Below, piece after piece: positions 11,909 to 32,558 of a stretch of DNA of 33,010 nucleotides. The translations under genes were made by a program, and so were the position numbers. The stretch is from Phytoactinopolyspora halophila (GTDB lineage: Bacteria > Actinomycetota > Actinomycetes > Jiangellales > Jiangellaceae): the NCBI RefSeq assembly GCF_003287285.1, contig NZ_QMIG01000048.1, positions 1 to 33,010 of the forward strand, written 5' to 3'. Below the pieces are notes generated by a model, which was given only the letters and a program-made list of their open reading frames with translations, did no database searches and was not told where the DNA came from. Every line of letters begins with the position of its first letter. Within the stretch, counting starts at the first letter, position 1.

Positions 11909-12002
11909 TCCGAATGATCATGTTTGGTACGTTTCCTCGGGCCATACCACGTCTGCAGACGTATTACGGCCCGAGGAAACGTACCAAACATGATCATTCG
12001 GA
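11909..12002. terminator. 94-bp near-perfect palindrome, copy 2
   Basis: Perfect 35-base arms (11909-11943 and 11968-12002) flank a 24-base centre that is itself largely palindromic around ACGTCTGCAGACGT. It lies 22 bases after the LacI gene stop and 60 bases before the next gene. It could form a very stable hairpin in RNA, or a cruciform in DNA. No T-run follows, as is common for actinobacterial intrinsic terminators. Its left arm is shared with the element at 2351-2430. Confidence 0.8.
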
Positions 12003-16274: not shown

Positions 16275-16354
16275 CCCCGGCGGCACTTCGACACCCAGGC
16301 GTGCGTTTATCCCCGCCACACGGCGAATTACCGCACGTTTCAGCATCGAAGTCG
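16275..16354 (+). repeat. 80-bp direct repeat, left copy
   Basis: It is identical to 17629-17708 apart from one base (16280). Positions 16281-16354 match without error. The unit is an interrupted palindrome: outer ACTTCGA/TCGAAGT, inner CGTGCG/CGCACG and CGCC/GGCG-type pairs surround a short ACA centre. It stands 260 bp upstream of the AbiEi-like gene's start, in the same orientation as the right copy. Confidence 0.9.
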
Positions 16355-16387
16355 GTCGGACGATCGTGTCAGGGGGCTTCCCCGACG

Positions 16388-16459
16388 ACGGAGCCGGTCC
16401 ACAGGTGCACCACGGAGCCGGTCCACAGGTGCACCACGGAGCCGGTCCACAGGTGCACG
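16388..16459 (+). repeat. 24-bp tandem repeat, three copies
   Basis: The unit contains GGAGCCGGTCCACAGGTGCA, repeated at exactly 24-base spacing (starts of GGAGCC at 16390, 16414 and 16438). A fourth partial TGTCCACA follows near 16474. It lies in the upstream region of the AbiEi-like gene, where it could be a regulatory binding array. A multiple-of-three unit would also keep a reading frame if translated. Confidence 0.85.
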
Positions 16460-16534
16460 TCGCGTTCCGCGACTGTCCACAAATCGGCTCACCCTGCTTT
16501 CCCCGGACGACGGCGGGCCACAAGGTTGTCTTCC

Positions 16535-17611
16535 ATGGCACGCCGGCCCAGAACTCGACTGCCCGGAGACATATCGACGCTGCTGTGGCGAGGCGACGGG
16601 CTTCTCGACCTCCCGACGGCCCGCACCTTCGGCGTCTCGCCCGATCGGTTGCGCAGGCTGGCGCGGTCCGGACTTCTCGTGCGGCTGGCCGAGGGTGTCT
16701 ACGCCTCAGCCGAGACCATGCCGCTGCTCGACGAGTGGGAACGGCACGCCTTGATGGCCCGCGCCTTCGTCCTGTCCTGCCACGATGCTTACGCCACCGG
16801 ATGGTCCGCGGTTATCAACTGGGGATTGCCAACGCTGGGCCGCCCGCCCGAGCTACCTATCGTCATGCGGCCGAAGCTGGCAAGTCGAGGCACGACGTTC
16901 AGTACCTACGGACGCATCGTGACGGCAGCGCTTCCGCCGCACCATCGATGGCAACGCAGGGGGATCCGGCTCGTGAGCCAGGCGTGGGCCGCAGCCACGG
17001 TGGCGCTGAACGCACCCGTCGCTGCAGCGTTGATCGTCGCCGATGCTGTCGCCCGGCGCGAGCACGACCTCGCCGAAGCCGTGCGCCAGATGTCTCGCTG
17101 GCCAGGAGTCACCCGCGCCCGATGGGTGGCGGAGCACGCCGATCCGCTGGCCGAAAGCCCGGTGGAGACGCTCGGCCGGTTCGCCATCATCGCCGGAGGC
17201 CTGCCCCGAGCCGTGTCCAACGCATGGGTTGGCATGGAGCGACCAGAGTTCCGGGTGGACGGCCTCTGGCCATATCACCACGCAGCCCACGAGGCCGACG
17301 GGAGCTGCAAATACAACAACCGTCCCGACGCCGCCAAGGTTGTGGCTCAGGAAAAGGAACGCGAGTGGCGGTTGCGAAGGCTCGGTCTCGACATCGTCCG
17401 GTATGATTTCGCGCTCGCAGCATATCGGCGTGCTGACCTGATCCGCCGCTTTCACCATCTCCTTCGCGACAATCCGCCGAGTACGGCACCCATCCGGTGG
17501 TGGAAGCACGTTCCCGGCGTCGGTCCGGTGGAGCCGCGCCCGGGCGACTGGCCGTCGCCCTACCCGGTAGCGACCATCCTTCCTCCCGGCTGGTACGACG
17601 AACGCCGGTGA
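16535..17611 (+). CDS. AbiEi-like winged-helix protein with nuclease-like C-terminus
   Basis: This 358-residue protein resembles the type IV antitoxin AbiEi / DUF559-containing group of actinobacteria. The N-terminal part has a winged-helix arrangement (ARTFGVSPDRLRRLARSGLL near 29-48, then LAEGVYAS). The C-terminal part has a PD-(D/E)XK-type pattern: Glu211 (SPVETLGRF), Asp242 (RVDGLW), Glu253/Asp255 (HEADGSCKY) and Lys259, followed by EKEREWRLRRLGLDIVRY. ATG at 16535 starts the recognisable domain. No AbiEii-type toxin or other partner is adjacent, and the gene is bracketed by 80-bp direct repeats. Possible roles are DNA-binding regulator, orphan antitoxin or small defence nuclease; function is not established. 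Confidence 0.78.
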   Translation: MARRPRTRLPGDISTLLWRGDGLLDLPTARTFGVSPDRLRRLARSGLLVRLAEGVYASAETMPLLDEWERHALMARAFVLSCHDAYATGWSAVINWGLPTLGRPPELPIVMRPKLASRGTTFSTYGRIVTAALPPHHRWQRRGIRLVSQAWAAATVALNAPVAAALIVADAVARREHDLAEAVRQMSRWPGVTRARWVAEHADPLAESPVETLGRFAIIAGGLPRAVSNAWVGMERPEFRVDGLWPYHHAAHEADGSCKYNNRPDAAKVVAQEKEREWRLRRLGLDIVRYDFALAAYRRADLIRRFHHLLRDNPPSTAPIRWWKHVPGVGPVEPRPGDWPSPYPVATILPPGWYDERR

Positions 17612-17628
17612 CCCGACCCCGCGCTCCA

Positions 17629-17708
17629 CCCCGCCGGCACTTCGACACCCAGGCGTGCGTTTATCCCCGCCACACGGCGAATTACCGCACGTTTCAGCAT
17701 CGAAGTCG
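17629..17708 (+). repeat. 80-bp direct repeat, right copy
   Basis: This is the second copy of the repeat at 16275-16354, offset by 1354 bases, with one mismatch. It begins 18 bases after the AbiEi-like gene's stop and ends 19 bases before the stop of the converging ROK gene. Its interrupted dyad could also serve as a terminator between the two genes. Confidence 0.9.
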
Positions 17709-23524: not shown

Positions 23525-24513
23525 GAGTGGGATTCCTCTCGCCGGCCCACGTGCACGCCGATGCCTACGTCGCGAACGTGCGCGCCGCCGGAGCCGACGT
23601 CGTCGGCGTGACCGACGACGACACGAAGCGCGGCGTGCGCTGGTCGGCCGAGCACGGCGTGCCGTGGATGGGCTCGGCCGATGAACTGTTCGACGCCGGC
23701 GTGGATGCCGTCGTCGTGTGTTCCGAAACCGCTCACCACCGCAAACACGTCGAGCGTGCCGCCGCCGCAGGTGTCGCGGTGCTCTGCGAGAAACCGCTGG
23801 CCACCACGGAGGACGACGCCCGCGCGATCGTCGACACCTGCACCCGGTCCCAGGTGACCCTCATGACCGCGTTTCCCATGCGGTTCAGCCCGCCGCTGCG
23901 CGAAGTCGCGTCGACCATCGCCAGCGGGACGATGGGGCGGCTGTACGCGTGCACCGGAACGAACCAGGGCGAACTTCCCCTGCATCACGGCGCGTGGTTC
24001 GGCGATCCCGTCCTGGCCGGCGGCGGCGCGCTGATGGATCACACCGTCCACGTCGCCGACATCTTGCGCTGGTATCTGGGTCAGGATCCGGTCGAGGTCT
24101 ACGCGGTGACCAACAACCTCCTGCATCGCGAGGCCACGCCCGTCGAAACCGGTGCGCTGGTGATGTTGACGTATGCCGACGGCTTCTTCGCCACCATCGA
24201 CGCCAGCTGGAGCCGGCCGCCGGCCTATCCGACGTGGGGCGGGCTGACCGTCGAGTTCGTCGGCGAGCACGGCGTCGTCGACGTCGATGCGTTCAGCCAG
24301 CAGTTGACCATCTACGGCGGAACGCAGAACCAGCTGAGCTGGCTCCCGTGGGGCTCCGATGCCAACCAGGGGCTGATCGACGAATTCCTCGCGGCCGTGC
24401 GCGAGCGCCGCACGCCGGCGGTGACCGCCGACGACGGCCTGGCCGCCACCCGTGTCGCGCTGGCCGCCTTGCGCTCAGCCGAGACCGGCGCACCCATCCC
24501 CTTCTCCCGCTGA
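23521..24513 (+). CDS. Gfo/Idh/MocA family oxidoreductase, second copy
   Basis: This 330-residue oxidoreductase is of the same family as the preceding gene. The nucleotide site is atypical: RVGFLSPAHVHADAY in place of GxGxxG. CEKPLATT and GGALMDHTVHVADILRWYLG are present. Its end (VTADDGLAATRVALAAL) closely parallels the first copy (VTADDGLAALRIASAAA), so the two probably arose from related ancestors and may act on successive intermediates or the same sugar. The start overlaps the previous stop (ATGA). The stop codon is inside the stem of a perfect hairpin. It is the last gene of the operon. Confidence 0.88.
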   Translation: MRVGFLSPAHVHADAYVANVRAAGADVVGVTDDDTKRGVRWSAEHGVPWMGSADELFDAGVDAVVVCSETAHHRKHVERAAAAGVAVLCEKPLATTEDDARAIVDTCTRSQVTLMTAFPMRFSPPLREVASTIASGTMGRLYACTGTNQGELPLHHGAWFGDPVLAGGGALMDHTVHVADILRWYLGQDPVEVYAVTNNLLHREATPVETGALVMLTYADGFFATIDASWSRPPAYPTWGGLTVEFVGEHGVVDVDAFSQQLTIYGGTQNQLSWLPWGSDANQGLIDEFLAAVRERRTPAVTADDGLAATRVALAALRSAETGAPIPFSR

Positions 24514-24564
24514 TCATGAACACTAGGCGACCTATGTGGTCGCCTAGTGTTCATGATCAGCGGG
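24506..24564. terminator. Bidirectional hairpin with 27-bp perfect arms
   Basis: Arms at 24506-24532 and 24538-24564 are exact complements around a 5-base TATGT loop. The left arm begins inside the final codons of the oxidoreductase and contains its TGA; the right arm ends 6 bases before the stop of the converging Enzyme I gene. It should end both transcripts. The right arm is related to 55-81. Confidence 0.88.
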
Positions 24565-32492: not shown

Positions 32493-32558
32493 CTTGTTGG
32501 GTCTGAGGAACGTCCAGGAGAACAAATCGAGTTCTGGACGTTCCTCAGACCCAACAAG
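32493..32558. terminator. Perfect inverted repeat, 25-bp arms
   Basis: Arms 32493-32517 and 32534-32558 are exact complements around a 16-base loop, with the outer sequence CTTGTTGGGTCTGAGG. It is isolated from any confident gene (the nearest stop is 350 bp left). It could be a terminator for a - strand gene outside or lost, or a palindromic repeat. Confidence 0.75.

Follow-up and report, generated by a model that had tools for sequence, protein, structure and literature searches.

An AbiEi/Vsr-like nuclease gene flanked by fixed-length palindromes in Phytoactinopolyspora halophila: a candidate REPIN-like partnership in Actinomycetota

The window analysed here is a stretch of 33,010 nucleotides from Phytoactinopolyspora halophila (assembly GCF_003287285.1, contig NZ_QMIG01000048.1, positions 1 to 33,010, forward strand). 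Direct comparison of 16275-16354 with 17629-17708 gave agreement at 79 of 80 positions, including an identical stretch of 73 bp (16282-16354 / 17636-17708), and the two repeats lie in direct orientation at a spacing of 1354 bp. Each 80-bp repeat contains a 68-bp interrupted dyad, ACTTCGA...TCGAAGT, and between both repeats there is a single gene (Table 1); the first repeat begins 260 bp and finishes 180 bp upstream of its ATG, and the second begins 18 bp past its stop codon. An earlier sequence-only reading of this DNA, which had described two near-identical dyad-bearing direct repeats with one mismatch around one AbiEi-like gene, was therefore confirmed on these points, distances included. 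The two 68-bp units are each other's nearest relatives (68/68), with random copies of the family agreeing at about 70%. The gene has a mycothiol transferase gene upstream and a convergent ROK gene as neighbours, and no AbiEii nucleotidyltransferase toxin gene was found among the neighbours.

Table 1. Positions of the gene, its domains and the repeats within the window
Feature	Coordinates	Strand	Remarks and basis
Upstream 68-bp palindrome (copy 1)	16285..16352	+	arms 16285-16305 and 16332-16352
Three 24-bp tandem repeats (ACCACGGAGCCGGTCCACAGGTGC), between upstream palindrome and start codon	16385..16458	+	window sequence
AbiEi-like DNA-binding protein fused to Vsr-like nuclease, 358 aa	16535..17611	+	ATG to stop codon; Pfam AbiEi_4, homolog alignments, AlphaFold2 pLDDT 92
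AbiEi-type module, residues 11-203: winged helix and AbiEi second domain	16565..17143	+	6y8q structural match
Vsr / I-Bth0305I-like nuclease domain, residues 206-315	17150..17479	+	3r3p and 1cw0 structural matches; invariant columns
Downstream 68-bp palindrome (copy 2)	17639..17706	+	arms 17639-17659 and 17686-17706; same orientation as copy 1

In the AlphaFold2 model of the protein, residues 10-203 matched the AbiEi antitoxin of Streptococcus agalactiae (6y8q; VIA Z 9.9, 170 aligned residues, Foldseek E 1.7e-5), and the nuclease domain matched I-Bth0305I (3r3p; Z 11.5) and Vsr (1cw0; Z 9.5), so that the winged helix coupled to a nuclease-like domain, as had been read from the letters, reappeared in the predicted structure as an AbiEi module joined to a Vsr-like domain. 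Residues E207, E211, R240, D242, E253, D255, G256, K259 and Y260 did not vary among 32 homologs, the most distant at 26% identity, and D242, E253-x-D255 and K259 make up a putative active site; no His-x-His motif was invariant in the 32. A PDB sequence search with the protein returned four near-threshold matches only. Searches for homologs on plasmids or phages gave no matches, and a plasmid or phage origin of the gene was rejected on this ground.

Using a model built from sequence only, we located the 68-bp element at about 44 places in the P. halophila genome, and 42 of these could be aligned without gaps, each being exactly 68 bp with both half-sites conserved; the same fixed-length element at so many places is a repeat far beyond chance. 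About 40 copies lie at intergenic sites unrelated to the AbiEi-like gene, which bears out, as to dispersal, the plain alternative offered at the outset, namely a dispersed genomic repeat. All sites fall between called genes, and convergent gaps were enriched among gaps with a site (16/34) relative to gaps without (3/53, P = 8e-6; gene calls come from a custom codon-usage caller and are approximate). Compared with shuffled sequences the 68-bp unit has a more stable fold (z = -3.2), but from copy to copy its two arms change independently, with no more pairing at variable positions than in shuffles. This independence points to a two-fold protein site on double-stranded DNA and not to a hairpin under selection. 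An RNA-structure reading was rejected, as no Rfam family matched and arm covariation did not exceed that of shuffles. Near-identical copies, unlinked or neighbouring, were observed for C6/C21 (67/68), a C41 pair (68/68) and a C12 pair (66/68). Target-site duplications of 2-8 bp at offsets 0-5 showed no excess at the 42 sites, and DDE-type transposition (IS or MITE) was rejected because of their absence. The two C12 copies (C12:274535-275534; L005, L009) are direct and bracket a PIN-domain (VapC-like) gene together with a small ORF, maybe an antitoxin; the AbiEi-like gene is absent there, and the similarity runs about 10 bp to the left and 29 bp to the right beyond the core. Contig C39 (411 kb) holds 11 of the roughly 44 sites, about three times its even share, and a tyrosine recombinase gene (C39:281165-282073) adjoins its site at 282664. 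A tyrosine recombinase as mobilizer was set aside, since such a gene lies beside this one site only, as was a sugar-transport context (from G004 C3), which was not seen at other sites.

Homologs of the protein occur in 20 of 22 genomes of the family (Jiangellaceae, assigned via named homologs), with palindromes of about 64-78 bp nearby, often on both sides, which resemble each other within a pair but differ from one homolog to the next. We examined 80 loci of named homologs (Haloactinopolyspora, Phytoactinopolyspora, Jiangella, Hoyosella, Lolliginicoccus, Microbacterium, Humibacter, Geodermatophilus and others), at which palindrome density was 1.04 per kb within 500 bp of the gene compared to 0.07 elsewhere. 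A 60-80-bp palindrome was present in 75/139 gaps beside homologs, about half of these gaps being without one above threshold, compared to 7/173 other gaps at the same loci (odds ratio 28, P = 5e-25). A direct match common to the upstream and downstream flanks was found in 47/75 loci versus 4/75 after shuffling, and at some loci (e.g. L212) the flank match is inverted, so the orientation of the pair is not fixed. Downstream copies were about as frequent as upstream copies, the upstream palindrome lies at a similar distance before the gene in many homologs, and the length of about 67-68 bp is kept from Jiangellaceae to Microbacterium while the letters change by homolog. Distant homologs in Bifidobacterium, Geodermatophilus and Nocardioidaceae had inverted repeats across the gene, or nothing; five loci (L230, L236, L240, L245 and L253) showed strong inverted repeats across the gene (e.g. 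GTCATTTCATCCAGATTCCGGCTGAACTGAC) and no palindrome on each side. The sequence-only reading would have counted a repeat with no link to this gene family as evidence against its proposal; what we found is a linkage that recurs across Actinomycetota homologs.

Allowing lengths of 62-78 bp, a free-spacing pattern detected the element in four Jiangellaceae genera at essentially always 67-69 bp, the few other spacings being apparently shared coding-sequence matches. The inner arms of these palindromes are genus-specific, and the Jiangellaceae letters were absent from about 370 genomes outside the family in a class sample of 394. From the flanks of the Microbacterium homologs we derived the pattern CGAGASTGC...GCASTCTCG, which gave up to 10 exact copies per Microbacterium homolog genome, all of 67-68 bp with 58-74 allowed (67, rarely 68); no copy was found in the Jiangellaceae, Hoyosella and Lolliginicoccus genomes included in this search or in one Microbacterium genome (G405). 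Among 89 Microbacterium genomes, these palindromes were present in 21, at 1-42 copies each, and a close homolog (E below 1e-60, a cut set at a score gap after the scores had been seen) was present in 20/21 genomes with them versus 37/68 without (P = 5e-4); many close homologs in the pattern-free genomes are flanked by palindromes with other letters, mostly of 67 bp. One such alternative set of letters, taken from beside the genes in G436 and G442, was searched in the 89 genomes and matched these two alone; the copies (9 in G436, 3 in G442) share one fixed length, and they lie mostly away from the gene in G436 and in 1/3 cases in G442. This coupling of palindrome letters to the homolog strongly supports recognition of the palindrome by the protein, as judged from comparison of genomes. 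The proposal that the protein binds these repeats as its own sites is well supported, by flanking palindromes of the same length whose letters follow the homolog and match the scattered copies of its genome.

Palindromes with other letters were also observed in P. halophila. The paralog at C39:97-1053 (L149:1163) has upstream a 66-bp palindrome with quite different letters, CTTGTTGGGTCTGCGG..., so that the letters are again coupled to the neighbouring gene. A perfect 66-bp palindrome at 32493-32558 of the window, CTTGTTGGGTCTGAGGAACGTCCAG..., has the letters found upstream of this paralog and is, by these letters, a copy of a second palindrome family. The window palindromes at 2371-2420 (50 bp) and 11909-12002 (94 bp, perfect arms) carry CTCGGGCC..TAC..ACGTC letters, which they have in common with a palindrome beside a distant paralog (C25:205917, L034:2531); these two are possibly a third family or terminators. 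A further 59-bp palindrome at 24506-24564, CCCGCTGATCATGAACACTAGG..., has a similar counterpart about 1 kb from the C49 paralog (L033:3388).

Collectively, we lean towards a two-part element as the somewhat likelier account, in which a chromosomal AbiEi/Vsr-like nuclease gene is paired with fixed-length palindromes (68 bp here) that its product recognises and spreads or maintains, much as is proposed for RAYTs and REPINs. Pairs of 23-bp inverted repeats are bound by AbiEi (halves 3 bp apart) and by Rv2827c (13 bp apart) (PMC7319586), which gives overall lengths of 49 and 59 bp, not far from the 67-68 bp found here. With halves of that size, sites of 67-68 bp would have about 21-22 bp in the middle, a gap longer by roughly one helical turn. 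Homology, geometry and the coupling of letters make it probable that both half-sites are occupied by AbiEi modules, two of them or a multiple of two, so that the module would bind the palindrome as two or four subunits, and the upstream copy probably doubles as the gene's own operator. The nuclease domain may then cut or nick at or near the palindrome, in such a way that copies spread and are kept, as is supposed for RAYT on REPINs; for cutting by the predicted Vsr-like domain, the fold and the conserved residues are the sole support. We infer spreading from the genome-specific expansions, the near-identical unlinked copies (C6/C21) and the patchy distribution. If this account is true, a second unrelated enzyme with its own palindrome would represent an independent origin of the REP-type way of life, a large protein group annotated as 'AbiEi antitoxin' would gain a function, and a class of fixed-length intergenic palindromes in actinobacteria would be explained. 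Matched letters per lineage make the protein-DNA specificity readable from the DNA itself and directly testable. We found no description of this gene-palindrome pair in the open-access literature searched.

We compared orthologous solo sites among three Microbacterium species, where the boxes differed at 6/308 positions compared to 31/161 in the spacers (P = 2e-10); in a second species pair of very low divergence, the counts were 1/140 for boxes and 4/195 for spacers. Solo sites are thus maintained, whether through being in use or through the loss of all but the intact ones. In the trio, sites were inherited in place and stable between species, and we found shared sites and one copy-number locus only, with no clean empty site. 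Movement was not caught in these sites, nor in P. halophila, where target-site duplications were not found. The copy-number locus has two tandem palindromes in G403 (C1:13182/13308) and one in its relative G404 (C2:7870), a change of 126 bp. Conserved boxes at solo sites would suit a binding site of benefit to its carrier just as they would suit a mobile one. The main rival holds that the sites serve the host: the protein would be a domesticated DNA-binding protein and the scattered palindromes its chromosomal sites, for instance as terminators or roadblocks where genes converge, or as anchors that structure the chromosome. The nuclease would act rarely or on foreign DNA only, and the sites would have arisen by ordinary duplication and been kept by selection. 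This rival explains box conservation and stability as well as the two-part element does, and it is further favoured by the strong bias to convergent gaps, the independent variation of the arms, which suits a double-stranded dimer site, and the lack of target duplications. Against it are the invariant catalytic residues and the patchy distribution with genome-specific arm letters in many copies, which is hard to obtain by dozens of sites changing in step, and we regard the rival as possible but rather unlikely.

The remaining explanations fare worse than either. The upstream palindrome could be an AbiEi-type autoregulatory operator only, with the downstream and scattered copies as role-less by-products; AbiEi antitoxins do autoregulate via paired inverted repeats (PMC7319586) and the upstream palindrome is similarly placed in many homologs, yet palindromes are found about as often after the gene as before it, and the scattered copies avoid promoters while keeping their boxes, which makes this explanation improbable. 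The sequence-only reading had raised, as one possibility, a mobile defence cassette with the palindromes as recombination sites; the gene between them would then be exchangeable cargo. Two near-identical pairs in the P. halophila genome do bracket defence or toxin-antitoxin-type genes (AbiEi-like here, PIN at C12), but the bracketed gene across genera belongs to the same nuclease family, pair orientation varies (inverted at L212), and with no empty site, no target duplication, no plasmid or phage homologs and no AbiEii partner, the cassette was left unsupported and seems very improbable. A plain dispersed repeat (a MITE, or a REP served by another transposase), of which two copies flank the gene by chance, would account for the copies at unrelated intergenic sites and for the direct pair around the PIN-domain gene, but is already strongly disfavoured, hardly credible beside the linkage to gene homologs in many genera with different letters, the outcome of the letter prediction (G436/G442, 2/89 genomes) and the missing target duplications.

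Returning to the two-part element, its anatomy is closest to that of REPtrons (REPIN + RAYT) of Pseudomonas and enterobacteria, which likewise have a chromosomal gene flanked by palindrome copies, many scattered extragenic copies whose letters differ by flanking gene, and a unit of two inverted halves (PMC3116915, PMC3733652). Cognate palindromes on the flanks of the gene, and extragenic copies across the genome that carry the resident gene's letters, are REPtron features that we found here. The two differ in that RAYT is an HUH (Y1) tyrosine transposase whereas an AbiEi plus Vsr-like fold is predicted here, in that REPs carry a GTAG or CGTC foot whereas the consensus here ends in ACTTCGA or CGAGASTGC, and in that the unit here has a fixed 67-68 bp and arms that vary independently, not as a hairpin. 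In the cited REPIN/RAYT literature, REP-type repeats with a dedicated enzyme are described for HUH transposases only (PMC3116915, PMC3733652). The AbiE type IV toxin-antitoxin system (AbiEi; Rv2827c) shares the AbiEi winged helix with its second domain and paired inverted repeats recognised by AbiEi (PMC7319586), recognition here being predicted from letter coupling; it differs in that the protein here carries a fused nuclease domain, in that palindromes occur past the stop codon and genome-wide as well, and in that no AbiEii toxin gene is adjacent, so that this is not an AbiE toxin-antitoxin pair. With Vsr endonuclease and the Vsr-like homing endonuclease I-Bth0305I, the C-terminal domain shares its predicted fold and a conserved acidic putative active site, whereas here this putative site consists of D242, E253-x-D255 and K259, the domain is fused to an AbiEi module and the gene lies between two intact sites instead of interrupting its own. 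Since the enzyme is by its predicted fold not of HUH type, the REP foot is absent, no AbiEii toxin gene adjoins and target duplications are lacking, we regard this as a distinct kind of system. There is, in our judgement, an even chance that AbiEi-Vsr nucleases copy their own fixed-length 67-68-bp palindromes across Actinomycetota and co-evolve with them, letter by letter, in a RAYT/REPIN role that arose independently from a homing-endonuclease-like enzyme, and the way of life of the element may well be REPIN-like.
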